Source: Companilactobacillus tucceti DSM 20183
Lineage (GTDB): Bacteria > Bacillota > Bacilli > Lactobacillales > Lactobacillaceae
Length of the DNA stretch: 63,555 nucleotides
Reading direction: 5' to 3'
NCBI RefSeq assembly: GCF_001434665.1
Contig: NZ_AZDG01000013.1
Span: forward strand, 1 to 63,555
Shown here: positions 6,729 through 28,268 of the stretch, in pieces
Numbering within the stretch: the first letter of the stretch is position 1
Layout: every line of letters starts with the position of its first letter
The notes under the pieces: model-generated
Told to the model about the DNA's origin: nothing
Seen by the model: only the letters and a program-made list of their open reading frames with translations
Database searches by the model: none
Position numbers and translations under genes: made by a program

Positions 6729-6740
6729 GCACAAAAGAGA

Positions 6741-6850
6741 GTGCGCCAAAGTATGGTCAACTTTCGAGCATTAAAGTAGAATACCCCAACAATCCGAGAG
6801 GATTGTTGGGGTATTCTATTTTAAGCGGAAAAAGTTATGCTTTGGTGCAC
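6741..6850 (+). ncRNA. Copy A of a stop-codon-associated nested hairpin element
   Basis: The outer stem pairs 6741-6751 with 6840-6850 (11 bp, one G-U). Inside are a 6/2-nt loop (ATGGTC against AT), a second stem AACTTT/AAAGTT, conserved strands CGAGCATTAA and TTAAGCGGAA, and an inner variable hairpin (about 6775-6795 with 6800-6820) that looks like a terminator. CGTTTA follows the outer stem. Copies of the same plan occur at 13,500, 26,536 and, with a different core, 20,105. Confidence 0.7.
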
Positions 6851-6949
6851 GTTTATACAGCACATTTAAGAAAACAAGAGTTTATCATAATCACACTTCT
6901 ACCATTTACCATTATATATAATAGTAGGGAGATATTTAATATCATACAA

Positions 6950-6985
6950 AAAAGCTTATCTACTTTTAATAGTAGATAAGCTTTT
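6950..6985 (-). terminator. Terminator downstream of nagB
   Basis: A perfect 15-bp stem (6950-6964 with 6971-6985) and a 6-nt loop. It is flanked by A and T runs and so could work in both directions. It lies 27 bases beyond the nagB stop. Confidence 0.85.
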
Positions 6986-7011
6986 GTGATATTAAGCATA
7001 TATAGTAGAAA

Positions 7012-7743
7012 CTAGTTAAGTTTTTCGTCAACTGATGAATCACTTAATTCACTAGCAGCATCTTCATCAACAATAACTGTTACGTTATCTCTTGTTTGAA
7101 GAACTGATGCAGGGCAGTCGTTTGTAACTTTTTCTTCGATCATACCTTTAACAGCATCGGCTTTTTCTTTACCAAAGGCCATTAGTACGATGTTCTTACT
7201 CTTAAGAATTGAACCAATTCCCATTGAGTATGCGTAACGAGGTACATCATTTTCGTTTTCAAAGTTTCTTGAGTTTGCTTCAATAGTTGATTCTGTTAAT
7301 TGAACTTTTCTTGTTTCAACGTCAAATGGTGAACCTGGTTCGTTAAAACCAATGTGACCATTGCGACCTAATCCAAGAATTTGAAGATCAATAGGATGAT
7401 CGGCAATTACTTTATTGTAACGTTTTGTTTCTTCTTCAGGATCTTCTGCTTTACCATTTGGAACAAATGTTTCTGCAAATGGTTTCTTGTCAAACAAGTT
7501 TGATTGCATGAAGTAACGATAACTTTGTGGATCTTCTGGTGCAAGACCAACATATTCATCCAAGTTAACTGATGTCATCTTTGAAAAATCAACATCACTG
7601 GCAATCATTTCCTTATACATAGGGATTGGTGTACTACCAGTTGCTAAACCAAGAACCTTAGCACCATTATCCATAGCTGACTTAATAAGTTCGAATGCCT
7701 TCTTACCGGCAACTTCTTTATTACTTGTAACAATAACTTTCAT
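7012..7743 (-). CDS. nagB: Glucosamine-6-phosphate deaminase
   Basis: A 243-residue enzyme converting glucosamine 6-phosphate to fructose 6-phosphate and ammonia. Visible motifs: GLATGSTP near residue 33, the catalytic NLDEYVGL near 60 and [14 protein letters not shown] near 125, which contains the ring-opening histidine. Length matches the short Gram-positive NagB form. It is a single gene, divergent from mtlA, with NagR-like boxes upstream, so induction by amino sugars is likely. Confidence 0.96.
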
Positions 7744-7779
7744 TATATATGTTACTCCCTTCAGAATTATACCTCTTGT

Positions 7780-7850
7780 TTGGTATAGTCCAATTATAGT
7801 TGTCTTTTATAGTATCTGTCAAGAATTTACAGAAAAATTGTATAGACCAG
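7780..7850 (-). promoter_or_regulatory. Two NagR-type (GntR family) operator candidates
   Basis: TTTGGTATAGTCCAATT at 7779-7795 and TTGTATAGACCAG at 7838-7850 resemble the TGGTATAGACCA core bound by NagR/DasR-like GntR repressors. The two boxes are about 58 bp apart in the nagB upstream region. No nagR gene is in the window. The match is by eye. Confidence 0.5.
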
Positions 7851-7918
7851 ATTTTGTCATGAATTTTTGTGCCAAAGCTATCGTTGATGGAATTTTAGGA
7901 AACGCATACAATAATTCT

Positions 7919-7932
7919 TGTAAGCGTTTTAA
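7919..7932 (+). promoter_or_regulatory. cre-like site upstream of mtlA
   Basis: TGTAAGCGTTTTAA matches the CcpA-binding consensus TGWAARCGYTWNCW at 13 of 14 positions. It lies 25 bases before the mtlA start, where binding would block initiation. Confidence 0.55.
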
Positions 7933-7956
7933 GTGCTTGGAAGGAGTGTTAAAAAT

Positions 7957-9795
7957 ATGGAGGCAGCTTCAAAAACAGACGCAAAAAAAGAAAAAACTTC
8001 TATTAAAACGAAGGTTCAACGTCTAGGTAGTAAGCTTTCAGGAATGGTTATGCCAAACATTGGTGCATTCATAGCTTGGGGACTTATTACAGCCTTATTT
8101 ATGGATTCAGGTTGGCTACCAAATGCCCAATTGGCAAAAATGATCACGCCAATGGTTACATATTTATTGCCATTATTAATTGCTTTTACAGGTGGTAGCA
8201 TGGTTGACGATCATCGTGGTGGTGTCGTTGGTGCTATCGCAACAATGGGTGTCATTGTTGGTACTAATATTCCTATGTTTATTGGTGCTATGATTATGGG
8301 ACCTTTAGGTGGTTGGTGCATTAAGAAATTTGATGCATGGGCACAACCAAGAACTAAACAAGGATTTGAAATGCTTGTTAATAACTTCTCAGCCGGAATT
8401 TTAGGTATGTTATTAGCTATCATCGGATTCTTTGGAATTGGTCCTGTTGTTTCAGGACTTTCAGCAGCATTAGCAGTGGGTGTTGATTGGATCATCAAAC
8501 GTAATCTAATTCCACTAGCAAATATCTTCATCGAACCAGCTAAGATTTTGTTCTTAAATAATGCTATTAATCAAGGTATTCTAACACCGTTAGGTATTCA
8601 AGCATCAGCATCAGCTGGTAAATCAATTCTATTCTTGCTTGAACCAGATCCAGGTCCAGGTCTTGGAGTACTATTAGCCTTTATGTTCTTTGGTAAAGGT
8701 AGTGCTAAGAGTAGTGCTTCTGGTGCCGCAATTATCCACTTCTTTGGTGGTATTCATGAAATTTACTTCCCATATGTATTGATGAAACCTGCATTATTCC
8801 TATCAGTTATCGCTGGTGGTGTTTCAGGTACATTCATGTTCAACCTATTGGGAGCAGGTTTGAAGGCATCACCTTCACCAGGTTCTATTATTTCAATTCT
8901 TCTTATGACTCCTAAGGGATTAGGAAATTATGTTGCGGTTCTAAGTGGTGTCGCTGTTGCTACAGCAGTTTCATTCTTAGTTTCAATGGTCATTTTGAAA
9001 CGTGATAAATCAGAAGATACAGATCTTGAAGCTAGCCAAGCTAAAATGGCAAACATGAAGGGATCAGCTAAAGGTACTTCATCAGATGCAAGTGCTGCAT
9101 CAAACGAAGATGCTCGTGCAATCCTTTCAACAGCAAACGAAGTTAACCATATTATTTTTGCTTGTGATGCCGGTATGGGATCATCTGCAATGGGTGCTTC
9201 AATTCTTAGAGATAAAGTTAAGAAAGCTGGATTGGACTTATCAGTTACAAACACAGCTATTAACAATTTGAAAGATGAACCAGGATTATTAGTTGTTACA
9301 CAAGACGAATTAGCAAGTCGTGCTCTTCAAAAGACACCTACAGCTGTTCACGTCGCTGTTGAAAACTTCTTGAATTCACCTAAGTATGATGAAATCGTTA
9401 CAGGTTTGAAGACTAAGGAAGTTTCAGGCACAGTTGATAGTGCTCCTAAGAGTGATGACAAAGCTAAGAAAGAAACAACAGAAGAAAGTAATATTCAAGA
9501 TATAGATGTTTCAAAAATTAAAGTTATTGATTTCATCCATCATGATCAAAATGTTGGTTCTGCTACAATGGGACGTTCATTGTTCAAGGACAATATGAAG
9601 AAGTCCGGAGTAACAGGTATTAAAGTTCAACACTTGTCAGTTGGTGAAGTTGATGATGAAGAAGATGTTCTTGTAATTGCTAGTCGTGATACAGCAAAAC
9701 GTATCAAATTATCATTCAAGAACGTTCAGGTTCTTGTCGTTGACAATCTAATGGATGCACCTGAGTATGATAAACTAATTGCAGAACTTAAATAA
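7957..9795 (+). CDS. mtlA: PTS mannitol transporter, EIICB component with an extra degenerate EIIB domain
   Basis: A 612-residue membrane protein that imports mannitol and phosphorylates it to mannitol 1-phosphate. Residues about 15-345 are the EIIC membrane domain, including GGIHEIYFPYVLMKP. A EIIB domain follows near 400 with the phosphocysteine motif CDAGMGSSAMG. A second EIIB-like domain (about 525-612) repeats the pattern as HHDQNVGSATMG with the cysteine replaced, so it cannot carry phosphate in the usual way. The start is set by GGAAGGAG; a longer in-frame start lacks a ribosome site. Confidence 0.94.
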   Translation: MEAASKTDAKKEKTSIKTKVQRLGSKLSGMVMPNIGAFIAWGLITALFMDSGWLPNAQLAKMITPMVTYLLPLLIAFTGGSMVDDHRGGVVGAIATMGVIVGTNIPMFIGAMIMGPLGGWCIKKFDAWAQPRTKQGFEMLVNNFSAGILGMLLAIIGFFGIGPVVSGLSAALAVGVDWIIKRNLIPLANIFIEPAKILFLNNAINQGILTPLGIQASASAGKSILFLLEPDPGPGLGVLLAFMFFGKGSAKSSASGAAIIHFFGGIHEIYFPYVLMKPALFLSVIAGGVSGTFMFNLLGAGLKASPSPGSIISILLMTPKGLGNYVAVLSGVAVATAVSFLVSMVILKRDKSEDTDLEASQAKMANMKGSAKGTSSDASAASNEDARAILSTANEVNHIIFACDAGMGSSAMGASILRDKVKKAGLDLSVTNTAINNLKDEPGLLVVTQDELASRALQKTPTAVHVAVENFLNSPKYDEIVTGLKTKEVSGTVDSAPKSDDKAKKETTEESNIQDIDVSKIKVIDFIHHDQNVGSATMGRSLFKDNMKKSGVTGIKVQHLSVGEVDDEEDVLVIASRDTAKRIKLSFKNVQVLVVDNLMDAPEYDKLIAELK

Positions 9796-9815
9796 TTCTG
9801 CAAGGACGAGTAAGG

Positions 9816-11894
9816 ATGAATCTATCAAGTCGAGAGTCAGAAATATCACTATTACTATTAAAGAATCCTAATGGATTAAGTATTGCTGACTTAATGAAAA
9901 ATATTCACGTAAGTCGCCGAACGATTTATCGTGAACTATCAAGTTTAGAAATAAGCTTAGCTCATTTGGCTATTAGTCTAACTAAAGAGGATGGTAATTA
10001 TCGGTTGATTGGCAGTAAAGAGAATTTAGAAGAACTAAATTCTGTACTGATCCAACCAGATAAACAGACAACAATAACTTCGGTTGAGACGAGACAAAGT
10101 GCCTTAGCTTGTAAGTTATTGACTGTAAATGAAATAGTTACTATTGGTTCATTAGCCGAGGAGTTTGAAGTCAGCGTATCTACTATCACTCAAGATCTTA
10201 AAGTAATAGAAGGAATATTTAATGACTATCAGGTAGAGATATCTCGAATCAAGGCAAAGGGTATTGAAATAATTGGAAAAGAAAGTAATATCCGTCGAGT
10301 AATAAGTGGCATTCTTTCTAGTGAAATAAATGAGTATGAGTTCTTTGAATTTCTCAAAAAAGAATCTGAAATGGGCTCAGTTACTACGTCTCAGTATTTT
10401 ATCAATCTATTAGATTTTGATTTGGTAAAGCAGGCTAATTTAGCCATTCAAAAGCGTATCAAAACTGATTTCTCCAATTTCTCCGATAGCCAACTCAAAC
10501 AATTGATCATTATATTGTCTGTGTCCGCCAAGAGAATTGAAGATAAAAAAGTTATTACTCATTTGAATCACATAAATCAAAGTGACTTGTTTAAATATCA
10601 ACACGTTGCAATTGAGCTCTTTAATCAGTTTAATGAGAAAATCAGGGATAGAATTTCATTGATGGAATTGGAATTTATGGCACAACAAATTCAAGGAATG
10701 AGCTTTTCGATTTCCAATAATGTATTGCTTGATGATTATGATTTGCAGCTTTCGTATCAAGTTAGAAATCTGATCAAACAGGTTTCTGACAGTTTTGGAT
10801 ATGATTTTAAAACTGATGATACATTGTTTAACGATTTAATGGCGCATATTGGATCCGCCTTAAAACGTCAGATCTCCCAGTTACCAGAGATCAATAATCC
10901 CGTTTTAAAAAATGTTATCAATAATTATCCACAGCTTTACGAAAAAGTTAAGAGCAACATGAAAGACGTATTTGACGATAGATTACCCAGTAGTGAATCT
11001 GCCTACGTATTGATTCATTTTGCATCAGCTTTTGAGCAACAACGACAAGATAAAGTAATTAGTGCATTAGTCGTTTGTGCAAATGGAATTGGAACAGCTA
11101 GGGTTCTAGAAAGTCGATTAAAGAAAACTGTACCAGAGATCAGTAATTATAAAGTTTCTCGTGTTGCAGAGTTGAGTAAATTAGATTTAAAAGAATATGA
11201 TTTGATTCTTTCAACTATTTTCTTACCGGGCTTTAAGTTTCCTTATAAAGTTATTTCACCATTGCTTTTGCAAAATGAAATCAGAGAAATAAAAGATTAT
11301 TTAGGTGATCAATTTGGAGCTATAGAGGTCAAGAGGGGACTTACTATTTCAAGTGACTCAAACGATCCCATAACTAAATTGAATAATCTTTATGAAGAAT
11401 TAACAATTTCTAAAAAGTTATTAGAAAATATTGAAGTTAAAAAAATTGATAATCGTGATTACAACTTACAACAGACGTTGTTGTTGCTATCAAGAAGATT
11501 AAGACCGGATTTTGTTTTAGATGCTGATAAAGTAGCGACCGCTCTTTATCAAAGAATGCAGCGAGCTCCAGTTGGACTTCCTAATACCGGTATAGGACTA
11601 GTTCACACGACAAATGAAGCTATTATTGAGCCATTCTTTTCAATTTATGAATTATCTAATTCAATAGTTATAAAGGGAATGGATCATAAGGCAATGAATC
11701 TAAAAAGATGTTTCTTCATGTTGGCACCTAAAGAAATGAATGACTTTAGTGCTGAATTAATGGGAAATATCTCCAGTTCGATCATTGATAGTGAGAGTAA
11801 TCTTAAGACTTATCAAAATGGCAATACAAATGAATTAAAAGAATTAGTATCGAAGTTATTTTTGGACGTTATTAAACAAAAGGATTGGAAGTGA
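9816..11894 (+). CDS. mtlR: Mannitol operon transcriptional activator (PRD family)
   Basis: A 692-residue activator. Order: HTH_11-type N-terminus (MKNIHVSRRTIYRELSSLE), a second helix-turn-helix near 110-135, two PTS regulation domains (about 190-400), an EIIB-like domain with cysteine in VVCANGIGTARV near 419, and a C-terminal EIIA-like domain with LVHTTNEAI near 598. Such proteins are switched by PTS-dependent phosphorylation. It lies between mtlA and mtlF, as in many lactobacilli. Confidence 0.93.
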   Translation: MNLSSRESEISLLLLKNPNGLSIADLMKNIHVSRRTIYRELSSLEISLAHLAISLTKEDGNYRLIGSKENLEELNSVLIQPDKQTTITSVETRQSALACKLLTVNEIVTIGSLAEEFEVSVSTITQDLKVIEGIFNDYQVEISRIKAKGIEIIGKESNIRRVISGILSSEINEYEFFEFLKKESEMGSVTTSQYFINLLDFDLVKQANLAIQKRIKTDFSNFSDSQLKQLIIILSVSAKRIEDKKVITHLNHINQSDLFKYQHVAIELFNQFNEKIRDRISLMELEFMAQQIQGMSFSISNNVLLDDYDLQLSYQVRNLIKQVSDSFGYDFKTDDTLFNDLMAHIGSALKRQISQLPEINNPVLKNVINNYPQLYEKVKSNMKDVFDDRLPSSESAYVLIHFASAFEQQRQDKVISALVVCANGIGTARVLESRLKKTVPEISNYKVSRVAELSKLDLKEYDLILSTIFLPGFKFPYKVISPLLLQNEIREIKDYLGDQFGAIEVKRGLTISSDSNDPITKLNNLYEELTISKKLLENIEVKKIDNRDYNLQQTLLLLSRRLRPDFVLDADKVATALYQRMQRAPVGLPNTGIGLVHTTNEAIIEPFFSIYELSNSIVIKGMDHKAMNLKRCFFMLAPKEMNDFSAELMGNISSSIIDSESNLKTYQNGNTNELKELVSKLFLDVIKQKDWK

Positions 11895-11898
11895 AACG

Positions 11899-12342
11899 AT
11901 GAAGGCTTTAGATAAAAATCTCATCAAACTTAATCAAGAAGCTAAGACAAAAGAAGATGCCATCAAACAAGCTGGTCAACTATTAGTTGATAATGGTTAT
12001 GTTGAACCAGGATATATTGATTCAATGATCGACCGTAATAAGGATGTATCAGTTTATATGGGTAACTTTATAGCTATTCCACACGGAACTGAAGATGGTA
12101 AGCATTTCATCAAGAAGACTGGAATTTCAATTGTTCAATATCCAATGGGTGTTGATTTCAGTGAAGACCCAGCAGATGAAAAGCTGGTTACAGTTGTATT
12201 TGGTATTGCAGGATTAAACGGTGAGCACTTGCAATTGTTGTCATCGATCGCATTATTCTGTAGCGATATCGCTAATGTCGAAAAATTAGCTGATGCACAA
12301 TCACCAGAAGAAGTAATTAATCTATTAAAGGAAGTTGATTAG
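11899..12342 (+). CDS. mtlF: PTS mannitol transporter, EIIA component
   Basis: A 147-residue cytoplasmic phosphocarrier that passes phosphate from HPr to the MtlA EIIB cysteine. The active histidine is in [10 protein letters not shown] (about residues 56-65). It starts four bases after mtlR and nearly touches mtlD. Confidence 0.95.
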
Positions 12343-12343
12343 G

Positions 12344-13495
12344 ATGAACGCAGTACATTTTGGAGCAGGTAATATTGGTAGAGGATTCATTGGAGAAACT
12401 TTAGCATCTAATGGATTTGACATTCACTTTGTTGATGTTAACTCAACAATCATTGATGCCTTAAATGATAGAAAAGAATATGACATCGAATTAGCCGCAG
12501 AAGGCAAGAAGAAGATTCATGTTTCTAACGTAGATGGTATTAATAACAAAGATAATCCTGAAAAGGTTGTTTCTGCTATTGAAAATACTGACATGGTTAC
12601 AACAGCTATCGGACCTAAGATCTTACCATTTATCGCTGGTTTAATTGCTGACGGTATCAGTGCACGTAAAGCTAATGGCAACAAGAAGACATTGGATGTC
12701 ATCGCATGTGAAAACATGATCGGTGGTAGTCAATTTCTAAAGGGTGAAGTATACAAGCATTTGTCAGATGACGATAAGAAGTTTGCTGACGAATATATCG
12801 GCTTCCCTAATGCTGCTGTTGACCGTATTGTTCCTATCCAACATCATGATGATCCTTTAGCTGTTTCAGTTGAACCATTCAAGGAATGGGTCGTTGATGA
12901 ATCACAAATGAAGAATCCATCAATCAAACTTGACACAGTTGTATATGTTAAAGACTTGGAACCATACATCGAACGTAAATTGTTCTCAGTTAATACTGGA
13001 CATGCTACAGTTGCTTATACTGGTGAATATCTTGGATACAAGACAATCGGTGATGCTATTGCTGATGAAAAAGTTCTTAAACAGGTTAAAGGTGCCCTTA
13101 AAGAAACAGGTGACCTATTGATCCATAAATGGAACTTTGATCCAGCAGAACATAAAGCATATCAAGACAAGATCCTAAGTCGTTTCCAAAATAAATATAT
13201 TTCAGATGACATCTTGAGAGTTGGTCGTACACCAATCCGTAAGTTAGGCTTTGATGAAAGATTTATCCGTCCAATCCGTGAATTGAAAGAACGTTCATTA
13301 GACTACAGTGTCTTATTAGATACCGTTGGTATGATTTTGACATTTGATGAAGCTAAAGATTCAGAAAGTGTTGAATTACAAAAGATGCTTAAAGAAAACA
13401 AAGCTATTGATGTAATCAAGAAAGTAACAGGTCTTAAAGATGAAGATTTAGTTAATGAAATTCTTGCATCATATGAGGCTAAGATTAATAAGTAA
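12344..13495 (+). CDS. mtlD: Mannitol-1-phosphate 5-dehydrogenase
   Basis: A 383-residue NAD-dependent enzyme oxidising mannitol 1-phosphate to fructose 6-phosphate. The N-terminal nucleotide motif is [13 protein letters not shown], and the family signature with catalytic lysine is [14 protein letters not shown] near residue 208. The ATG at 12,344 is used because homologues begin MNAVHFGAG. Last gene of the mannitol operon; a nested hairpin starts five bases after the stop. Confidence 0.96.
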
Positions 13496-13499
13496 GAGA

Positions 13500-13606
13500 G
13501 CGTGCCAAGCATGGTCAGCTTTCGAGCATTAAGGCAAAAGTGGTAAGCAATCAACTGATTGCTTACCATTTTTGCTTTAAGCGGAAAAAGCTATGCTTGG
13601 TCACGC
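13500..13606 (+). ncRNA. Copy B of the stop-codon-associated nested hairpin element
   Basis: The outer stem pairs 13,500-13,510 with 13,595-13,606 (5 + 6 bp with one bulged T). The internal loop ATGGTC/AT and the strands CGAGCATTAA and TTAAGCGGAA match copy A, while the second stem has changed on both sides (AGCTTT/AAAGCT). The inner hairpin sequence differs completely from copy A but still pairs. CGTTTAAGCAGCATA follows. Confidence 0.7.
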
Positions 13607-13669
13607 GTTTAAGCAGCATATTTAGAAGAAATAAAAGTAGTAACTAAATCTTTGTTGAATATTAATTTA

Positions 13670-13715
13670 TTTTAAGCGGAAAAGCTATGTTTTTTGGGGC
13701 GTTTAAGCAGCATAA
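13670..13715 (+). repeat. Orphan right half of the nested hairpin element
   Basis: The sequence repeats the 3' half of copy B: TTTTAAGCGG, then AAAGCTATG, then GGCGTTTAAGCAGCATA, without a left half or inner hairpin. It lies 64 bases after copy B and looks like a decayed or partly duplicated copy. Confidence 0.55.
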
Positions 13716-13755
13716 GCTAAAAATATTTATATTACGGATTCTTTTTACTTATCAA

Positions 13756-13833
13756 TTGACAAAATTAATTAGTTAATATAATCTCAAAAAGATTAATAGG
13801 CGTGAGAAAACTTGGTTTTTTCACGCTTTATTT
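13756..13833 (+). promoter_or_regulatory. Promoter and terminator-like leader hairpin of the antiporter gene
   Basis: TTGACA (13,756-13,761) and TATAAT (13,777-13,782) form a promoter with a short 15-bp spacer. The transcript would start near 13,790 and at once meet a hairpin (13,800-13,826; GCGTGA paired with TCACGC plus an A/T-rich inner stem) followed by TTTATTTTT. The GGGGG ribosome site comes next. This looks like transcription attenuation, but no alternative antiterminator pairing is obvious. Confidence 0.5.
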
Positions 13834-13848
13834 TTGGGGGATATCATT

Positions 13849-15429: not shown

Positions 15430-15439
15430 AGGTATTAAA

Positions 15440-17368: not shown

Positions 17369-17400
17369 TGAAAATATATTTATGATTTAAGTGTTAAAAC

Positions 17401-17442
17401 AAATGACCCTATCAATCCAAAGTCGGATTGATAGGGTCATTT
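17401..17442. terminator. Bidirectional terminator between convergent genes, with remnant D of the nested element
   Basis: An 18-bp stem (17,401-17,418 with 17,425-17,442) serves the GTPase gene and the converging adenosine deaminase gene. On the minus strand it is preceded by TTCGAGCATTAA, the left core of the nested element, which here is also the last four codons of the deaminase gene (Phe-Glu-His-stop). The right half of the element is missing. Confidence 0.8.
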
Positions 17443-17445
17443 TAC

Positions 17446-18474: not shown

Positions 18475-18560
18475 TTGGGTAACTCCTTTTACATCATTTA
18501 ATGTTAAGGATAATATGAAATGAAGCCTCAATCAATAAAATAATCTAACTTAATTATTAT

Positions 18561-18638
18561 AAAATACGAACAATACACTTATAATGGTTTAAAAATAATC
18601 GTATTTTACTTGACCTTTGCTAATTTATTTGCGATACT
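18561..18638 (+). promoter_or_regulatory. Purine permease promoter with PurR-like inverted repeat
   Basis: TTGACC (18,610-18,615), a 17-bp spacer and GATACT (18,633-18,638) form a good promoter. Just upstream, AAAATACGA (18,561-18,569) and TCGTATTTT (18,599-18,607) are a perfect inverted repeat. AAATACGAACAAT differs from the PurBox AWWWCCGAACWWT at one position. Regulation by PurR is likely but unproven. Confidence 0.55.
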
Positions 18639-18675
18639 TCGAGTATAGAAATATGTTTAAAAGGAGATTAATACA

Positions 18676-20013: not shown

Positions 20014-20036
20014 TATTTCAAACATTGAACAAATAA

Positions 20037-20068
20037 GGGGGCTGTGACATATATCACAGCTCCCTTTT
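20037..20068 (+). terminator. Terminator of the purine permease gene
   Basis: GGGGGCTGTGA (20,037-20,047) pairs with TCACAGCTCCC (20,054-20,064) and is followed by a T run, 23 bases after the stop. Confidence 0.85.
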
Positions 20069-20104
20069 ACATTTCTAATTTTTCCAAACTTTTATAGACT
20101 AAAC

Positions 20105-20215
20105 GTGCAACAAAGAGCTGCAACCTCCACATAGCTACGAACCACGAATGATTGATACTATCAATCATTCGTGTCTCTAGGCTATGCTCCGGTGGCAAAT
20201 CGCTCTTTGTCGCAC
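20105..20215 (-). ncRNA. Copy F: nested hairpin element, second core type
   Basis: On the minus strand the outer stem (20,202-20,215 with 20,105-20,118, 14 bp) has the same GTGCG...TGCAC end and G-U position as copy A and the same CGTTTA downstream. The interior is different: CCACCGGAGCATAGCC on one side and GTAGCTATGTGGAGG on the other, around a 13-bp inner hairpin (CACGAATGATTGA). It begins ten bases after the phosphodiesterase stop. Confidence 0.6.
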
Positions 20216-20224
20216 TCTTTGAAT

Positions 20225-21076
20225 TTATTTCCACTTCTTTATTAAATGCAAAGTCTCCTTAGTATTATTGGTAAATAAGCTATCCACTTTGTATTTATTC
20301 AAGGCATTGTAATTATTGTTATAGGTATTCATAACCCAAGTATTGATTTTAAAACCATTCTTATGTGCTGCTTTTATTAATTTAGGTGTTAGTTGATCCA
20401 AATCAACTGAGACGAATTTTATATATTTAGGAGCATTGTTGATTTTCTCTAAATATTGTCTTTGAGTTACAGCATCCATTAGCCAAAGAATAGGGACTTT
20501 CTTTTGAGATTTTTTACTGTGAAATTCTTTGATGCCTGGTATGCTTGAATCTTGCATAATTATATTATTGTTCATTTTATAGGTATTAAGTTCTTTTGCT
20601 AAAGCTTTTTCAGTGTCAGTATTATCACCAGCACCTTTTTTAGTTTCGATAATATAATGAACTTTCTTTTTGTATTTATCGAATACATCACTTAATTTAT
20701 GAAGAGGTTCCCCGTTTCTAAGTTTTACATTTGAAAGTTCTGAAGATGTTGAATCAGAAATATTAATATTTTTTCCGGTTGTTTTTTCCAAATTTTTATC
20801 GTGTGAAACGTAGAGTACGTTATCTTTACTTAGCCAGACATCTTGTTCGATATATTGAGTACCGTCTTTTATAGCCTGATTATATCCACTAAATGAGTGA
20901 TCAGGATTATTGTATGGACTTCCACGGTGTGAAAAAACTAGTGGTTCATCAGCAGAGGCGTGATTGACATCATGTTCGATAGAACTTAGATTAGTTTTGG
21001 CGAATGTGGTAGTAGTCATAAATGATAAGCCAATAAGACTTATAAATACTACGATTAGGTATTTAATTCTTTTCAT
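20225..21076 (-). CDS. Secreted glycerophosphodiester phosphodiesterase
   Basis: A 283-residue protein with a signal peptide (KRIKYLIVVFISLIGLSF, cleavage probably after TFA) and a GDPD TIM barrel. The catalytic histidines lie in FSHRGSPYNNPDHS and VSHD, with acidic metal ligands in EQDVW. It would cleave glycerophosphodiesters outside the membrane, releasing glycerol 3-phosphate. It could also act on teichoic-acid or lipid head groups. Confidence 0.92.
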   Translation of the reverse strand: MKRIKYLIVVFISLIGLSFMTTTTFAKTNLSSIEHDVNHASADEPLVFSHRGSPYNNPDHSFSGYNQAIKDGTQYIEQDVWLSKDNVLYVSHDKNLEKTTGKNINISDSTSSELSNVKLRNGEPLHKLSDVFDKYKKKVHYIIETKKGAGDNTDTEKALAKELNTYKMNNNIIMQDSSIPGIKEFHSKKSQKKVPILWLMDAVTQRQYLEKINNAPKYIKFVSVDLDQLTPKLIKAAHKNGFKINTWVMNTYNNNYNALNKYKVDSLFTNNTKETLHLIKKWK

Positions 21077-21119
21077 ATTCTATTCCTTATTTATTAGTTG
21101 ATAAAATTAATTTTACCAC

Positions 21120-21440
21120 TTAATTATTAGTTGTAAGTTTTATACCAATAATACTGATCAAAAGTAAGGTGATAAAGATCCATGTTATTGGTGAAATCTT
21201 GTCCCCAAAAAGGGTAACTCCAACAATTATTGATCCAACGGCACCTATTCCCGTCCAAATAGGATAAGCAATACTTAATGGCAATAATTTAGTTGCTTTA
21301 GCTAAGAATAGAAAACTAGCAATCATTCCTATAATCGTTAAGATAGTAAAATTCAATTTACTAAATCCATGACTCAATTTCATAGTAGTTGCCCAAACTA
21401 TTTCAAATATTCCTGCGGTAATTAGATATATCCAGTTCAT
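21120..21440 (-). CDS. Small multidrug resistance (SMR) family transporter
   Basis: A 106-residue protein with four hydrophobic helices. The conserved Glu of helix 1 is in AGIFEIVWATTMK, and the signature YPIWTGIGAVGSI is in helix 3, as in SugE/EmrE proteins. These work as dimers exchanging protons for quaternary ammonium or guanidinium compounds. The start at 21,440 follows GGAGG. Confidence 0.92.
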   Translation of the reverse strand: MNWIYLITAGIFEIVWATTMKLSHGFSKLNFTILTIIGMIASFLFLAKATKLLPLSIAYPIWTGIGAVGSIIVGVTLFGDKISPITWIFITLLLISIIGIKLTTNN

Positions 21441-21462
21441 AATATTTTCCTCCAAAAAAAAT

Positions 21463-21522
21463 AGAGTGCCCCTAACAATTCCTTCATAGGCCTAATGGAA
21501 TTGTTAAGAGTACTCTTTTTTA
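21463..21522 (-). terminator. Terminator downstream of the aldo/keto reductase gene
   Basis: An imperfect 20-bp stem (21,463-21,482 with 21,498-21,517), flanked by an A run on one side and a T run on the other. It separates the reductase gene from the SMR gene on the minus strand. Confidence 0.8.
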
Positions 21523-21568
21523 ATACACCCGGCGGTGGTTTTGATTTCAAATAAGGATAGCAAATCTA

Positions 21569-22414
21569 CTAAATAATTTCAAGTTGTGTTTTTTTATTTG
21601 GTTTTGGATACTCTGAATCGATCAATTCTAATTCATCAGAAGTGAACTCGATGTCAACTGCGGCTAAGTTATCCTTTAAATGTTCGACAGTACTTGATTT
21701 TGGAATACTTAAAATATCATGATTTCTAAGTACCCAGGCTAGTAACAGTTGGTGAACTGAGACGTGTTTTTGTTTTGCTAAATCTTTTAAGACAGGTTTG
21801 ATAGTTAAATAATCGCCACCATCAGAGCCAAATGGGGAATATCCGATAAATGACATTTGGTGTTCTTTTTGCCAAGGTAAAATCGAATATTCAACACCAC
21901 GACTACCAACGTTATATAGATCTTCGTTAACACGACAATCTTCTCCACCTGGTAGACTGTTTAATTCTTTTAAATCTGCAATATCGAAATTAGAGACTCC
22001 CCAATTTTTAATATATCCAGCTTTTTGGACTTCTTGAAGGCCACGTATTGTTTCTTCAAGAGGTGTAGCACCACGCCAATGTAGTAAATATAAATCTAAA
22101 TAATCTGTTTGTAGTCTTTTAAGACTATTTTCCAAACTATTTTTAATTAATTCAGGAGTAGCATGATTAGGATAGAATTTAGAAATAAGTTGAAAATCAG
22201 AACGGTTATAACCCTTTATAGCTTTTCCAATAAGAGTCTCGGATTTACCATCTCCATACATTTCGGCAGTATCAAGAACGGTAACCCCGTGGTCTAAGGC
22301 GTATTGAACGGATTTTATTTCTTCCTTACTTTTGGAATCATTACCTTCACCCATACGCCATGTTCCTAATCCTATTTCTGAAGAGTTTTGTTTATTAAAC
22401 GTGATTTGTCTCAT
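21569..22414 (-). CDS. Aldo/keto reductase
   Basis: A 281-residue NADPH-type oxidoreductase with the usual TIM-barrel tetrad: Asp and Tyr in DTAEMYGDG, Lys in SKFYP, His in YLLHWRG. The C-terminal cofactor loop is IPKSSTVEHLKDN. The substrate is not predictable. The start follows GGAGGATC. Confidence 0.92.
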   Translation of the reverse strand: MRQITFNKQNSSEIGLGTWRMGEGNDSKSKEEIKSVQYALDHGVTVLDTAEMYGDGKSETLIGKAIKGYNRSDFQLISKFYPNHATPELIKNSLENSLKRLQTDYLDLYLLHWRGATPLEETIRGLQEVQKAGYIKNWGVSNFDIADLKELNSLPGGEDCRVNEDLYNVGSRGVEYSILPWQKEHQMSFIGYSPFGSDGGDYLTIKPVLKDLAKQKHVSVHQLLLAWVLRNHDILSIPKSSTVEHLKDNLAAVDIEFTSDELELIDSEYPKPNKKTQLEII

Positions 22415-22529
22415 GAATGATCCTCCTTGTAATCGTATGCATCTTTGTACAGCTTATCACAGAGCTTAATTTACTTAAATTTTTTGCTGTGCTAGATTGT
22501 TATTAAATAAGTTTTTAAGAAGGTATTCT

Positions 22530-23654
22530 ATGACGAATGTTTTAATTGCAGCGGATTCATTTAAAGGTAGTGCCACTTCATTAGAGGTTGGTGAATATTT
22601 AGAAAAAGGTATCAAAAAGGCTGATCCAAATATTGAAGTTCATAAATATGGAGTTGCCGATGGTGGCGAAGGTACCGTATCAAGTGTTGTAAATACTTTG
22701 AATGGGAAATTTATAAAATCCACTGTTACAGGACCACTTGGAGAAGAAGTCAATGCTACTTGGGGATTGTTAGATAATAAAACAGCTGTAATTGAAGTAG
22801 CTGAATCCAGCGGAATAACTTTGATAAATAATAGATTAGACCCATTAAAAACGACGACTTATGGTGTTGGGGAACTGATTAAATTAGCTTTAGATGTAGG
22901 TGTAAAAAAGATATATGTTGGATTGGGTGGCAGTGCTACTAATGACGGTGGAGCAGGTATGGCACAAGCCTTAGGAGCTAGATTCTTAGATAAGTCGAAT
23001 GATGAACTTCCATTTGGTGGTGGAAATTTAGATAAATTGGTTAAAGTTGATCTTTCCAAATTGGATTCTAGATTAAATAATGTCGAGATAATTGCTTTAT
23101 CAGATGTGAAAAATCCTTTAACAGGTAGAAATGGAGCTAGTGCAATATTTGGACCACAAAAAGGTGCTACTCAAGATCAAGTTACCCAATTGGATAAAAA
23201 TTTAGAAAATTTGGCTGAAAAGACCTATAAAGCAATTGGTAAAGATTTCTCTACTCGTTATGGTGCAGGTGCTGCCGGCGGAGTGGGATTTGGGTTAATG
23301 GCATTTTGTGATTCTAAAATAGAATCAGGTATTGATTCGATAATGAACTTAATACACTTAGATCAAGAAATGAAACAAGCTGATTTAGTAATAACAGGTG
23401 AAGGACAAATTGATGGTCAATCACTAATGGGGAAAGTTCCTATTGGGGTAGCTAAGTTAGCAAAAAAATTCAATCTGCCAGTTATTGTGGTTGCTGGAAG
23501 TATTGGAGAAGACATAGAAAAAGTATATGAAAGTGGAGTAGATCTAGTATTATCTTCAACTAATAAACCAATGTCTTTATCAGAAGCAATGAAAGAAACG
23601 CCAAAATTATTAGAAAAGGCCGGATATATGGCTTACAAAGCGTTTATTTTATAG
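22530..23654 (+). CDS. Glycerate kinase
   Basis: A 374-residue GlxK-type kinase (PF02595) that phosphorylates D-glycerate. Visible motifs: AADSFKGSATS at the N-terminus, GVADGGEGT near 50, GLGGSATNDGG near 135 and VITGEGQIDGQS near 290. The start at 22,530 follows AAGAAGGT. Its end overlaps the converging metal transporter gene by 11 bases. Confidence 0.94.
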   Translation: MTNVLIAADSFKGSATSLEVGEYLEKGIKKADPNIEVHKYGVADGGEGTVSSVVNTLNGKFIKSTVTGPLGEEVNATWGLLDNKTAVIEVAESSGITLINNRLDPLKTTTYGVGELIKLALDVGVKKIYVGLGGSATNDGGAGMAQALGARFLDKSNDELPFGGGNLDKLVKVDLSKLDSRLNNVEIIALSDVKNPLTGRNGASAIFGPQKGATQDQVTQLDKNLENLAEKTYKAIGKDFSTRYGAGAAGGVGFGLMAFCDSKIESGIDSIMNLIHLDQEMKQADLVITGEGQIDGQSLMGKVPIGVAKLAKKFNLPVIVVAGSIGEDIEKVYESGVDLVLSSTNKPMSLSEAMKETPKLLEKAGYMAYKAFIL

Positions 23655-24663
23655 ATTCTTGAGCTAATAATTCCAAATCAGGAGTATTTGAGTCTGGAAC
23701 AATCGTGATGGTAGTGTCAAAGACATTAAATTCTTTTCTCAATTTACCTTCAATTTTTTCATCTAAGTTATATATTTCCGTAGCCGTTTTATTAGGATCA
23801 ACAAGAATAAACATATCTACTATAAAGATATTACCGTTATAACGACTTCTTAGCTCTAAAACTTTATGAACACCATTTACTTTGTTAACAGTCTCTTCAA
23901 TTTTGTGTTCTAGTTTTGGATCCACATAATCTGCAAGATTCAAAGTGCATTCTTGGAATATTTTTAAACCAGACCAAAGGATAAATAATCCAATTACGAT
24001 ACTGACAACACTATCGATCCAAGGTAATTTTAGAAAGTATGATAGTAGAACTGTAACCATGGTACCTAAACTAGTTATGACATCTCCGAGGCTATCTTTT
24101 GCTGCCGCTAGAAGGGATGTACTGTTAAATTTTTTGCCATTGTATCGATTCAGATACCAAACAAATAGCATCATTAAAGTAGCAATAGCTGCTCCAACAG
24201 CGGACATTAAATTTGGACTTCCTTTACCACTTAGGTGGAATAAACTGATACCACTTTGAAAAATAATTTGTAAAGCAATCAAAACGATAACGAAACTAGT
24301 TATTAAAGTGAAGATAGTTTCTAATCTAAAACGGGATAACTGTAAAGCATCTCTGCTACGACCATATTTTTTTGAAAGTGGTTTACCAACAAAGTCGTCA
24401 TCGTCGATATTTGTTGCTTCGAATAGACCGACAATTAAAATGGAAGTTGAAATAACTCCAGATAGGTTATTAAAAGCATCGGCGCGCAAAGCTTGAGAAT
24501 TTCCAATAATCGATAACCAATATTCGACAAGTGTGATAATGATGTATATCATGACATTTAACCAAAGTGAATTTTTAGCATTTTTAAGATTTTTTATCTC
24601 ATTTTGTCGAATAACTCTTTGCTGTTGTAATTCCTTTAAAAAGTGTTTAGTAATTGTATTCAT
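23644..24663 (-). CDS. Cation diffusion facilitator (CDF) family transporter
   Basis: A 339-residue membrane protein with about six helices and a C-terminal cytoplasmic domain. Metal-site acidic residues are in QALRADAFNNLSG and AAAKDSLGDVITS. Members export Zn2+, Mn2+ or related ions by proton exchange; the metal is not resolved here. Confidence 0.9.
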   Translation of the reverse strand: MNTITKHFLKELQQQRVIRQNEIKNLKNAKNSLWLNVMIYIIITLVEYWLSIIGNSQALRADAFNNLSGVISTSILIVGLFEATNIDDDDFVGKPLSKKYGRSRDALQLSRFRLETIFTLITSFVIVLIALQIIFQSGISLFHLSGKGSPNLMSAVGAAIATLMMLFVWYLNRYNGKKFNSTSLLAAAKDSLGDVITSLGTMVTVLLSYFLKLPWIDSVVSIVIGLFILWSGLKIFQECTLNLADYVDPKLEHKIEETVNKVNGVHKVLELRSRYNGNIFIVDMFILVDPNKTATEIYNLDEKIEGKLRKEFNVFDTTITIVPDSNTPDLELLAQESIK

Positions 24664-24767
24664 TCAATCAGCATCCTTATATTTGTTTCCAAGTACCTAA
24701 TTATAGTTTTAATTATTAAAAATTAAAGAGGCTGGATAGTTATTAGTAATTGTTAGGAGAATGGTTA

Positions 24768-25328
24768 ATGGCAACTTACAGTCAAATTGAAATTGATATT
24801 ATTGATTCTTTTAAAAAATTAATGAGTGATCATGAGTTTTCAAATATTTCTATTTCGGAGATTGCTTCTGGAGCAAATATTACAAGACGTGGCTTTTATA
24901 ATCACTTTAAAGATAAATATGATTTAGTTAATACTATTTTTGATAATGACGTTTTTCCTAAAGTTATCAAATTAACTGATGTCGATAATTGGTACAAAGG
25001 TTCAATTTATATTTGTAATTATTTAAAAGAAAATCATGAATATTATAAAAAATTAGTCGGGTACAATGGTCAAAATTGTCTTCAAAAAGAATTTCATCAT
25101 CTCACTGAAATGCAACTATCCAAACTTATTCCAGAGATTTTAGATGGTCGTCAAATATCTAATGAAGACAGATCCTTTTTAATTGAATATTATTATAATG
25201 CCTATATGGGAATAATGACAGAATGGGTACTGCAAAAATCTGATTTCACGTCTGAGGAAATCGTTATGCGGTGGAAAATTTTATTGGAGAACTCTTTGCA
25301 TAATTATTTAAATTCTTTTGCAAAGTAA
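24768..25328 (+). CDS. TetR/AcrR-family transcriptional regulator
   Basis: A 186-residue protein with an N-terminal helix-turn-helix (ISEIASGANITRRGFYNHFKD, about residues 29-49) and an all-helical C-terminal domain with many aromatic residues (TetR_C-type). The start at 24,768 is eight bases after AGGAG. It precedes a dehydrogenase gene with a palindrome in the gap, so it may regulate that gene. Confidence 0.88.
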   Translation: MATYSQIEIDIIDSFKKLMSDHEFSNISISEIASGANITRRGFYNHFKDKYDLVNTIFDNDVFPKVIKLTDVDNWYKGSIYICNYLKENHEYYKKLVGYNGQNCLQKEFHHLTEMQLSKLIPEILDGRQISNEDRSFLIEYYYNAYMGIMTEWVLQKSDFTSEEIVMRWKILLENSLHNYLNSFAK

Positions 25329-25363
25329 AATTACATTTTTATGTTACTGTGCAAACTTATACA

Positions 25364-25389
25364 TTTATCAATAAATGTGAATTGATAAA
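25364..25389 (+). promoter_or_regulatory. Inverted repeat upstream of the DapB-like dehydrogenase, operator candidate
   Basis: TTTATCAAT (25,364-25,372) and ATTGATAAA (25,381-25,389) form a perfect 9-bp inverted repeat with an 8-nt spacer. It lies between the TetR gene and the dehydrogenase gene, and the symmetry suits a dimeric TetR repressor. Confidence 0.45.
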
Positions 25390-25451
25390 CTCATAGTAAG
25401 GAATTATTCTTTAGTCAAATTTTGGTATTTGATTGAAAGGAGACTTCTTTT

Positions 25452-26510
25452 ATGAACAAATATAAAGTTATCGTGTGGGGATTAGGAAATGTTGGGCGTT
25501 CTGCAATTAGAATGATCTCTGAACGTAAAAATATTTTGGAATTAGTTGCTGCAGTTGATGTTGATCCTAAAAAGGTTGGTAAAGATGCAGGTGAGGTCTT
25601 TGATTTTGATCCGATCGGAGTGAAAGTGACAAGTGATATTGACGCAGCATTAAAAATGGATGCAGATATCGTTTTAGATTTTTGCCCAACTGAAATGGAT
25701 AAAAAAGGAACATTTATGCCATCAGCAATCAGACTGTCTAAGTCTTTAGATGCAGGTAAAAATGTAATTACTACAATACCTGTATATCACTGTCAAGATA
25801 GTCAACCAGAAGTTTATGAATTCCTAGACGAGCATGCAAAAGCACATAATGTAGCATTTGTTCCATTTGGACTTTTGCCAGGGGATTATGCTTCATATAT
25901 TCCATTGGTTTTAGCCGGTGCTATGGGCCATGTTGACAAAATAGTTGTTCAATCTGGTGAAGATGATTGGCATAATACTTCAGGATGGGTAGATGTATTC
26001 TCATATGGAGCTGATATAGATAAGTATCCCAAATTGGATTCAGATGAAGATTTATTGGCTAAGTTTATTTATGCTTATTATTCATCCGGTGTATATGAAA
26101 TGGCAGATAGAATTGGCTTGAAGTATGACGAGTTTAAACCAAAACATGAAGTATTTACAGCTCCAGAAGATCTTGAAACGGTAAAAGGTATTGTTAAGAA
26201 AGGCACGATTTATGGTCATAGATTTACTATGGCTCTATATAATAAAGGATCAGAAGTGGCTGCTTTGCGTTATGTTCATAAAGTCTGTCATAAGAAGACT
26301 CCAGAATTAGCAATTAATAACTCGATCCACATAGAGGGACTACCATCAGTCGTTGATGCGACAATTGATGGCTTTATACCTGAAAGAGAAGGCTATGTAA
26401 CATCTGCTGCACCAGCAGTAAATCTAATATCAGGAGTTTTAAAGGCAAAAAAAACAGGCTATGTTGAAGCCTGTGATTTACCAGTTGTAATTCCAATTAA
26501 ATTGGATTAG
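25452..26510 (+). CDS. DapB-like NAD(P)H-dependent dehydrogenase
   Basis: A 352-residue protein with an N-terminal Rossmann motif VWGLGNVGRSAI and a DapB-type nucleotide domain. The rest resembles 2,4-diaminopentanoate dehydrogenase (amine dehydrogenase) proteins. It is longer than true dihydrodipicolinate reductase (about 260 residues), so a lysine-pathway role is unlikely. Substrate unknown. It follows a TetR gene and appears to be a single-gene unit. Confidence 0.8.
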   Translation: MNKYKVIVWGLGNVGRSAIRMISERKNILELVAAVDVDPKKVGKDAGEVFDFDPIGVKVTSDIDAALKMDADIVLDFCPTEMDKKGTFMPSAIRLSKSLDAGKNVITTIPVYHCQDSQPEVYEFLDEHAKAHNVAFVPFGLLPGDYASYIPLVLAGAMGHVDKIVVQSGEDDWHNTSGWVDVFSYGADIDKYPKLDSDEDLLAKFIYAYYSSGVYEMADRIGLKYDEFKPKHEVFTAPEDLETVKGIVKKGTIYGHRFTMALYNKGSEVAALRYVHKVCHKKTPELAINNSIHIEGLPSVVDATIDGFIPEREGYVTSAAPAVNLISGVLKAKKTGYVEACDLPVVIPIKLD

Positions 26511-26535
26511 ATGTAATAATTGATTCAGCGTAAAC

Positions 26536-26647
26536 GTGCAATGATACACGGATTTTTCCGCTTAATACAAACGACCCTATCAATCCAAAATCGGATTAAT
26601 AGGGTCGTTTGCCTTAATGCTCAAAAGCTGAACGTGTATCATTACAC
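26536..26647 (-). ncRNA. Copy C of the stop-codon-associated nested hairpin element
   Basis: On the minus strand the outer stem pairs 26,633-26,647 with 26,536-26,550 (15 bp, one G-U pair), unrelated in sequence to copies A and B. Inside are the same TGAGCATTAA and TTAAGCGGAAAAA strands and a terminator-like inner hairpin. The second stem is reduced to three pairs. The stem includes the stop codon of the MFS gene. CGTTTA follows the outer stem. Confidence 0.68.
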
Positions 26648-27907: not shown

Positions 27908-28159
27908 TTAAAAACATTAAGGTAAACAATACACTTAAATTCATATGATGTCCATTAATATATTCCGTGTATTTATAATCTGTATACTATAGTAGAAAGA
28001 TTTTAAAATACGAATGAACGGTTTCTTGTATTGAAAATGTGGATTGCTATAGTATATGGATATTCAAAAACATCTTATCTAGTTGACAGTTATGAATGGC
28101 GTTGCTACAATCAGATTGTAATTAATTGATTTAGAATAATTGAAGTACAATAAAAAAGA

Positions 28160-28268
28160 GGGGTGCTATAGCATCCCCCAGATAGCCCGTTTAAGACGAT
28201 GGCTACTTAGATTAATTTAATGGGTTCTTAAATAACCGTTGCTGGCCAAAGCAAGACGGTTATTTTTT
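28160..28268 (+). ncRNA. Antisense RNA of type I toxin locus 1
   Basis: A TACAAT box near 28,145 precedes a short transcript holding a small GC hairpin (GGGGTGC/GCATCCCC), the motif TAGCCCGTTTAAGACG, and a terminator (AATAACCGT paired with ACGGTTATT, T run). The terminator overlaps the end of the toxin gene on the other strand. Locus 2 at 44,480 has the same plan and shares the motif TAGCCCGTTwAAGACG. Confidence 0.6.

Follow-up and report, generated by a model that had tools for sequence, protein, structure and literature searches.

The three related sequences A, B and C in the window, that is, the whole 63,555-nt stretch of Companilactobacillus tucceti DSM 20183 DNA analyzed here, are members of an interspersed Companilactobacillus family of about 155 nt, and they probably represent a mobile element lodged at intrinsic terminators just past stop codons, where it forms the 3′-UTR of the preceding gene. 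The likeness of these three copies, already noticed in a preliminary description made from the window alone, is genuine, and the family reaches far beyond them. In the 2.17-Mb genome, the core motif occurs 71 times exactly (a count that includes at least one occurrence, L025, inside a gene without an element) and 101 times when up to one mismatch is allowed, against 16 for a reversed control. A model of the family has 82 matches in this genome and finds matches in 34 of 36 Companilactobacillus genomes, and relatives with the same plan are present in other Lactobacillaceae, Enterococcus and Aerococcus. The carriers of the element are fermented-food bacteria.

Within the window, the motifs shared by the three copies lie where they had been placed. 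YGAGCATTAA is found at 6765-6774 (A), 13523-13532 (B) and 26623-26614 on the minus strand (C), TTAAGCGGAAAA is found at 6821-6832 (A), 13577-13588 (B) and 26565-26554 on the minus strand (C), and a downstream CGTTTA follows in each case. With up to one mismatch, TTAAGCGGAAAA has four matches in the window, all of them exact, where 0.62 are expected and none of 100 shuffles reaches four. Taken singly, neither YGAGCATTAA (13 matches, one mismatch being tolerated, versus 12.2 expected) nor the tail motif is significant in the window; the arrangement of the motifs is. All three copies fold far better than shuffled sequences, with z-scores of −12.6 (A), −10.0 (B) and −9.0 (C). Rather than the nested hairpins first proposed, the fold is a single rod composed of three helices (P1, P2 and P3) separated by fixed internal loops.

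Copy A, on the plus strand, is matched over the 155 positions of model R1 at 6732-6884 (E value 1.6e-39, A being among the sequences used to build that model). From the computed fold and pair counts, the 5′ arm of P1 (6741-6754) pairs with 6837-6850, the P2 strand AACTTT (6759-6764) pairs with AAAGTT (6831-6836), and P3 is a hairpin with a variable stem bounded by TTAA at both ends (6771-6824). The fixed internal loop CGAGCA (6765-6770) faces GCGGAA (6825-6830), and the 3′ arm of P1 runs into the fixed CGTTTA (6850-6855). Copy B (13498-13619, plus strand) has the same parts: P1 (13500-13512 with 13593-13606), P2 (13517-13522 with 13587-13592), P3 (13529-13580) and CGTTTA (13606-13611). A second 3′ half-copy (TTAAGCGGAAAA...CGTTTAAGCAGCAT) lies 95 nt beyond the first at 13672-13713, also on the plus strand; this fourth copy consists of the 3′ half only, and by itself it folds no better than shuffles (z-score 0.74). 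A second 3′ half placed in this way is seen in several copies in the genome. Copy C (26523-26650, minus strand) has P1 at 26647-26634 with 26549-26536, P3 at 26617-26562 and CGTTTA at 26536-26531. The reported change on both sides of the second stem is borne out between A and B; in C, P2 is broken (AGCTTT versus AAATCC) and the computed fold deviates there.

Each copy follows a gene on its own strand: A follows 5898-6728 (plus), which we take to encode a RhaD-like aldolase, B follows 12335-13495 (plus), presumably a mannitol-1-phosphate dehydrogenase-like (mtlD-like) gene, and C follows 26642-27826 (minus), assumed to encode an MFS transporter-like protein. The distance of 0 to 13 bases after the stop, given earlier for all three, needs correction: GAGYG starts 10 nt past the stop in A and 2 nt past it in B, where the copy itself also begins, and in C the stop codon (26644-26642) lies within the outer stem P1. 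Across the family, placement relative to stop codons is not random. In 52 of the genome's own 63 copies and in 35 of the 62 named copies, P1 has a sense gene end no more than 16 nt away; an antisense gene end is that close in 7 of 63 and 5 of 62. By a crude ORF rule, nine of the 63 own copies lack a sense gene end within 20 nt. At that distance, one is present for 12 of 19 copies from other Companilactobacillus, 10 of 18 from other Lactobacillaceae and 5 of 11 from other families.

The stems of the element vary widely and remain paired. In alignment A2, which contains 60 of the 63 own full copies (L040, L053 and L058 were excluded as irregular), 96.3% of 2750 cells are paired, as compared with 35-46% in slid controls; 28 of 46 pairs show change on both sides, and 401 cells are changed on both sides versus 106.6 in shuffles, all of these cell counts being inflated by kinship among copies. 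In 20 rows from other Lactobacillaceae genera, 110 of 114 P2 cells are paired and 38 are changed on both sides, in an alignment that was fitted to the model and kept 87 of 128 rows after removal of weaker overlapping matches, mostly on the opposite strand. The internal loops are nearly invariant, their mismatches being retained in nearly all A2 copies, and the ends of P1 (GAGYG, AYG and CRCGTTTA) are conserved at nearly all sites. Among model matches, the first loop pair is C-A in 30 (two of these rows being A and B themselves), U-G in 11, U-A in four, C-G in two and C-C in one; the named copies were collected by an exact pattern that fixes TTTCGAGCATTAA and are thus uninformative on that loop position. 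A K-turn reading of the GAGC/GCGGA loop, tried by hand, did not fit. The proposal of fixed loops with stems kept for pairing is supported by many changes on both sides of pairs, and the homologues are not near-identical copies. Departures from Watson-Crick pairing, counted without helices below 70% Watson-Crick and without P3 positions 5 and 6, favor G-U over A-C by 87 to 26 and 144 to 21, an excess that shrinks to 23 to 15 and 20 to 15 when each position and state is counted once. Since such an excess points to the sense strand, structure seems to matter on that strand.

Orthologous stops in three close relatives are mostly free of the element. We considered 25 sites, 22 of them further sites picked randomly among 48 eligible own copies; three had no usable orthologue, and the remaining 22 gave 59 comparisons. 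Six were set aside by hand as element-bearing at the stop (four full, one decayed and one short form), and the other 53 have no element at the stop, a set that includes P3-like remnants (L297, L318, L321 and L327), an element in sense orientation some 90 nt downstream (B in G018) and opposite-strand elements (A, L021 and L062 in G018). A strict terminator hairpin is present in 27 of these 53, as compared with 0.1 in shuffles. At L001, the element lies exactly at the place of the terminator stem-loop of two relatives, with the T-run retained. The direction of change, from terminator to element, is read from three relatives, and at L001 C. nantensis also carries an element (L116) with different stems, so that loss of an old element in the three relatives, or repeated insertion, is possible there. 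The same alternative applies to L036 and L064, which among the matches listed are paired in like manner with C. hulinensis L121 and C. kedongensis L119, and to four of the 59 comparisons. Not every copy is young, since C. kimchii and C. paralimentarius have a near-identical copy at a common stop. Among the three possibilities named in the preliminary description (a 3′-UTR regulator, a processed RNA or a stop-adjacent mobile repeat), the last fits best, given the absence at relatives' stops and the replacement at L001.

As for termination, a terminator scan made no sense-strand call inside A, B or C. Beyond the element it did call terminators on the same strand, at 13798-13828 after B and at 26474-26454 after C, which leaves a takeover of termination by the element a conjecture. 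A T5 run lies 40-120 nt past the core in 29 of 63 copies versus 6 of 63 in a coding control. With respect to mobility, a MITE would have terminal inverted repeats and a target-site duplication; P1 is an inverted repeat, and no duplication was seen in filled/empty pairs, among which a single site has clean ends. No autonomous copy with a gene between half-sites was seen by eye among 84 rows of copies, and two queries for phage carriage gave no match. The transposase test covered Y1 (PF01797) alone, which is encoded in 18 of 36 genomes of the genus; it was rejected as the present driver because it is absent from G000, G002, G006 and G009, each of which has 74-83 model matches.

The same element could be purely parasitic MITE-like DNA, its hairpin needed only as folded single-stranded DNA in transposition and its placement due to targeting of terminator hairpins plus selection against other insertions, with no RNA role. 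Such a reading is possible, although we doubt it. It accommodates the few sites common to the three close relatives, the 95-nt half duplications, the short forms without P3 and one uncompensated P1 difference in the copy common to C. kimchii and C. paralimentarius, and Croucher et al. judge the pneumococcal repeats BOX, RUP and SPRITE to be parasitic (PMC3049150). Those repeats merely mirror coding bias in their orientation (60.8-63.3% on the leading strand; PMC3049150), whereas our element follows the upstream gene in an almost fixed sense orientation. The G-U/A-C asymmetry and the C-A/U-G loop exchange also speak for RNA, although a folded single strand of DNA could favor these too. They also weigh against mutational upkeep, in which one arm is copied onto the other by quasi-palindrome correction or template switching in place of selection, since such copying is strand-symmetric and yields Watson-Crick pairs. 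We think it unlikely as the general explanation: mismatched internal loops persist, and where a copy has two 3′ arms, each of them matches the 5′ arm, while several such copies show drift in the second half of P3. By eye, it has left plausible traces in L194, with a perfect palindrome in place of the loops, in L086, where the P1/P2 bulge has turned complementary, and in L058, where the 3′ flank has done so. Stem diversity may come partly from arm-to-arm conversion, a point absent from the preliminary description.

Copies with two 3′ arms also raise the prospect of a conformational switch, in which the 5′ arm would pair with either the near or the second, distal 3′ arm and so regulate 3′-end formation. 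A distal stretch scores at least 30 against its own 5′ arm in 13 of 63 own copies, 11 of these at 88-103 nt from the core, and overall, distal regions score higher against their own arm than against permuted arms (mean 22.0 versus 18.4, sd 0.43). In most copies, on the other hand, no distal arm co-varies (the own arm has a mean rank of 0.61 and comes first in 10 of 63), and the near arm is the earlier to form and usually no weaker (mean 32.6), which makes a switch quite unlikely; as a general partner, the distal arm was rejected, being one in a minority of copies only. Finally, P1 itself could stem from the target if the core had been inserted in a terminator loop whose arms became P1, creating false covariation. 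The precedent is EFAR, compared here by general description, whose targets are unrelated stem-loops largely deleted on insertion, with target stems partly retained at the element ends. The terminator hairpins at the relatives' stops and the L001 replacement would suit an EFAR-type target, although the direction of change is read from three relatives and C. nantensis carries an element at L001 as well. Retained target stems do not fit: by eye, the relatives' stem is unlike P1 at all of L001, A, L032, L068 and L086, and the P1 ends are conserved nearly everywhere, so that this origin is highly improbable.

Rfam 15 covariance models gave no match at A, B or C when the window was scanned at gathering scores, and at 12 family loci the overlapping matches with E values up to 0.5 were to microRNA and plastid families far below their gathering scores. 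Rfam thus has no credible match to the element, we found no paper on it in the open-access literature searched, and the family is apparently unnamed, as first supposed, although EFAR, BOX and SPRITE-type repeats belong to the same kind. REP/BIME palindromes of enterobacteria also lie close behind stops, in mRNA 3′ regions, and are partnered by a RAYT/Y1 transposase; they are shorter than the element, which is about 155 nt long, has variable stems and is found without a Y1 transposase in four of the genomes richest in it. Group IIC introns target terminator stem-loops in sense orientation and insert behind them, bringing along an intron RNA and, in most cases, a reverse transcriptase, whereas the element stands in place of the stem-loop. 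EFAR and Efa-1 of Enterococcus faecalis resemble our element in being intergenic palindromic repeats that number in the dozens in one Lactobacillales genome. Efa-1 is described as a pair of adjacent stem-loops with a model length of 163 and 65 members, and the available part of its description mentions neither covariation nor fixed internal loops nor a stop-codon rule (PMC2267715). BOX is built of boxA, boxB and boxC modules. In Streptococcus pneumoniae, BOX, RUP and SPRITE are small, interspersed, highly folded and enriched between convergent genes, with SPRITE resembling a terminator and lying close to the 3′ ends of genes, and about half of the insertions are core in the species; the accessible part of that text contains no word built on “covar” (PMC3049150), and we set these repeats apart from the element by description. 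Our best reading is that the element is a previously undescribed version of the EFAR/BOX kind of repeat.

In the explanation that we favor, a small mobile element would settle at an intrinsic terminator directly behind a stop codon, moving in as the old terminator is removed, and would form the new 3′ untranslated region of the gene ahead. Its strong P3 hairpin, together in many copies with the distal T-run, may have taken over 3′-end formation, and a protein or the mobility machinery may recognize the fixed loops at the RNA level. More speculatively, and with considerable doubt on our part, it might be a Lactobacillales-wide class of mobile RNA with a conserved 3D internal-loop motif, using its sense transcript or single strand in folded form to enter terminators behind stops and rewiring many mRNA 3′ ends in one genome as a dispersed regulon of shared structure, some copies using two alternative 3′ arms as a switch. 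With tens of diverse sequences in each genome, the family lends itself to working out an RNA fold from covariation. It also offers a handle on the old question of how small repeats in bacteria locate terminators and take control of them, and whether the host then benefits. If our explanation is true, one and the same folded RNA closes dozens of genes across many lactic acid bacteria, and a gene that ends in a plain terminator in one species and in the element in another would constitute a natural experiment.

The repeat proposed in the preliminary description is real, and its three copies were all found in the window with their motifs, that is, A (6741-6850, plus strand), B (13,500-13,606, plus strand) and C (26,536-26,647, minus strand). 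The motif TTAAGCGGAAAA has four matches there, all exact in a search allowing up to one mismatch, against 0.62 expected, and none of 100 shuffles reaches four; neither YGAGCATTAA alone nor the tail motif alone is unusual in the window. A fourth copy recognized by motif match, at 13672-13713, consists of the 3' half only and shows nothing unusual when folded alone. By folding energy, A, B and C are 9.0 to 12.6 standard deviations more stable than shuffles. The structure is one rod of three helices (P1, P2 and P3) with internal loops, not a set of nested hairpins. Two further proposals, a second stem that changes between copies and a start 0 to 13 bases past the stop codon, do not extend to C, where P2 is broken and the host gene, whose final codons are unlike those of its relatives, has its stop inside P1.

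This element belongs to a large family. The 2.17-Mb genome holding the window contains 71 exact TTAAGCGGAAAA matches and, with one mismatch, 101 (16 for the reversed pattern), at least one of which, the exact match L025, lies inside a gene and is not an element copy; from fetched loci, a motif rule gathered 63 full copies in this genome. A two-half-site pattern matched 23 of 60 genomes, all 23 among the 36 of the genus and none among the 24 outside it, where its reversed control gave one match each in two. Named hosts are Companilactobacillus nantensis, baiquanensis, kedongensis, hulinensis, insicii, halodurans, paralimentarius, suantsaicola and kimchii, plus one MAG. The covariance-model search across Lactobacillaceae that had been suggested, performed with our model R1, finds the same plan in other genera. 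Within the genus, R1 matched 34 of 36 genomes, from at least 1 to at least 83 times each with 84 candidates scored per genome, G031 and G034 being without a match. Of 295 genomes sampled across the order, 35 match at E ≤0.001, spanning 20 of 74 genera (own genus counted). The strongest matches outside the genus (best ~1e-25) come from other Lactobacillaceae genera; some of the weakest cover the P3 hairpin only and may be chance matches. Since the element is a quasi-palindrome, many copies also receive weak R1 scores on the opposite strand. Plasmids carry matches in Lactiplantibacillus, Pediococcus and Leuconostoc (9 records), Enterococcus faecium (3) and Aerococcus (1); another plasmid query returned 55 records, 51 from Enterococcus, 3 from Klebsiella (putative) and 1 from Lactococcus. 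One Enterococcus query found no match among plasmids, and neither did two queries among phages.

After its repeat nature, the best-supported property of the element is its kept pairing. We scored a 60-row alignment of copies from the window's genome, pair by pair, against the rod structure. Standard pairs fill 96.3% of 2750 cells (82.1% when shuffled), both sides change at 28 of 46 pairs (shuffles, 20.9) and in 401 cells (shuffles, 106.6), figures that are not probabilities because relatedness enters the cell counts; with the partner shifted by 1 to 3 columns, only 35-46% remain paired. The claim of fixed loops with stems that change while remaining paired is thereby supported. P1 (14 pairs) and P3 (26 pairs) are the most variable helices, while P2 (6 pairs) varies little within this genome. 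Outside the genus the plan is the same with P2 swapped on both sides, for example AGCTGG/CCAGCT or AGGTCC/GGACCT. In an alignment fitted to R1, the 20 rows of other Lactobacillaceae have P2 paired in 110 of 114 cells (38 of them with both sides changed), and the 11 rows of other families have it paired in all 65 cells (11 with both sides changed); P1 pairing is less complete in these two groups, at 85.7% and 87.2%, respectively.

Departures from Watson-Crick pairing bear on which strand matters. Read on the sense strand, G-U outnumbers A-C 87 to 26 in the window's genome and 144 to 21 in copies from named species, an excess that shrinks to 23 vs 15 and 20 vs 15 when each position and state is counted once. 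Since G-U reads as C-A on the other strand, this favors the sense strand, as RNA or as single-stranded DNA, with strand-biased mutation as a possible confounder. In the internal loop between P2 and P3, the first position is C-A in 30 model matches (29 on recount, two being A and B themselves), U-G in 11, U-A in 4, C-G in 2 and C-C in 1, the U-G rows being loci from six genomes, of which three lie outside the genus judging by their handles. Copies from the window's genome and named species together show C-A 99 and U-A 2, the named-species set being uninformative at this position, as it was found by an exact pattern fixing a motif. In RNA, C-A and U-G wobbles have a similar shape, and the exchange thus hints at a conserved three-dimensional loop.

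Copies sit mostly just behind stop codons. By a crude ORF rule (≥60 codons, no gene caller), a sense ORF ends ≤16 nt from P1 in 52 of 63 copies of the window's genome and within -30 to +120 in 57, and an antisense ORF ends ≤16 nt from the 3' arm in 7; for named-species copies the sense and antisense figures at ≤16 nt are 35/62 and 5/62. A sense stop within 20 nt was seen in 12/19 matches from other Companilactobacillus, 10/18 from other Lactobacillaceae and 5/11 from other families. On an annotated plasmid the match begins 6 nt past the scrK stop; an Enterococcus match lies 81 nt downstream of asnS, so that the rule looks looser there.

What do relatives have at the same stops? We took A, B, C and a random 22 of the 48 other eligible copies and compared their orthologous gene ends with G018 (C. 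baiquanensis), G005 (C. kedongensis) and G023, whose gene ends are on average 83.8-85.9% identical, and obtained 59 comparisons from 22 of the 25 sites. The element is absent from the stop in 53, of which 27 have a strict terminator-like hairpin within the first 150 nt (0.1 expected in shuffles), at least one of these hairpins (L318) being a possible P3 remnant; several of the remainder show, by eye, imperfect terminators or other palindromic elements. A full element with different stems follows the same stop in four comparisons (L054, L063 and L069 in G018, L064 in G005), and the other element-bearing ones are a decayed copy and a short form. At site L001, G018 and G023 can be aligned on either side (the 5' flank by eye); they have a stem-loop of ~26 nt before a T-run, and in the window's genome that T-run is preceded by the element instead. 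G005 has a hairpin there and a downstream flank that is not alignable. Two observations speak against simple gain: behind the L001 gene C. nantensis also has an element (L116), with different stems, and a near-identical copy is common to C. kimchii and C. paralimentarius at another stop.

Other arrangements were seen at such stops. At a convergent pair in the window (6951-6983, with a gene at 7012-7743, minus strand), one gene is followed by the element and the other by a plain hairpin, seen by eye without a call from the terminator scan, an arrangement reversed at L190 in G018. Directly past the mtlD stop, where the window has copy B, L183 and L185 (G005 and G023) carry, by eye, another long palindromic element, CTGAGAATATT...AATATTCTCAG-like, and L193, L202 and L315 have, likewise by eye, other large palindromes at orthologous stops.

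The element is also modular. Some copies in the window's genome have a second 3' half downstream: the distal stretch scores ≥30 against the copy's own 5' arm in 13 of 63, lying 88-103 nt from the core in 11 of these, and over all 63 the distal region scores on average 22.0 with its own arm against 18.4 with permuted arms (sd 0.43), with a mean rank of only 0.61. Several copies with a distal arm show drift in the second P3 half, and L194, L086 and L058 look like products of arm-to-arm conversion. Variants lack P3 (L002, L077) or have a different 5' half (L019, L060, L088). In L019:2252, L060:2020 and L088, the replacement is GGTTGCAGCC...CACGTTTAGTCTATAAAAGTTCGGAAA-like and represents a further type of repeat, which several copies also have downstream of them in the opposite orientation. 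G018 has a GAGACC/GGTCTC subfamily (L184, L330, and L325 in a short P3-less form).

Elsewhere in the window, an rli28 match (a Listeria sRNA in Rfam) above the gathering score (28294-28477, minus strand), a RatA-like match below threshold (28137-28222, plus strand) and a 29-aa hydrophobic ORF (28273-28362, minus strand) may form a type I toxin-antitoxin module. A group I intron match (34398-34616, minus strand) is surrounded by larger ORFs mostly on the plus strand, in a putative phage-like layout, including one (34969-35607, plus strand) that we take to be HNH-endonuclease-like.

No Rfam family fits the element, in agreement with the preliminary description, which knew of no named family with such a plan. 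Nearest in behavior, likened by description and not by sequence, are presumably EFAR and Efa-1 of E. faecalis. For Efa-1, the likeness follows a published description (PMC2267715). The pneumococcal BOX, RUP and SPRITE are similar in kind but, unlike the element, have an orientation mirroring coding bias (PMC3049150). Compared by descriptions, the element is set apart by its kept pairing, fixed internal loops and strict place behind stops.

Three things suggest that the element would take over 3'-end formation: the terminators of relatives, the strength of the P3 hairpin, which averages -35.2 kcal/mol, and the presence of T-runs in 29 of 63 copies, against 6 of 63 for a coding control. Counting against this, conventional terminators are called further downstream of B and C, and the scan finds no sense terminator inside A, B or C. 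A Y1 transposase is now unnecessary for the element. In the simplest account, a mobile element would replace the terminator of a gene and would then serve as its 3' UTR.
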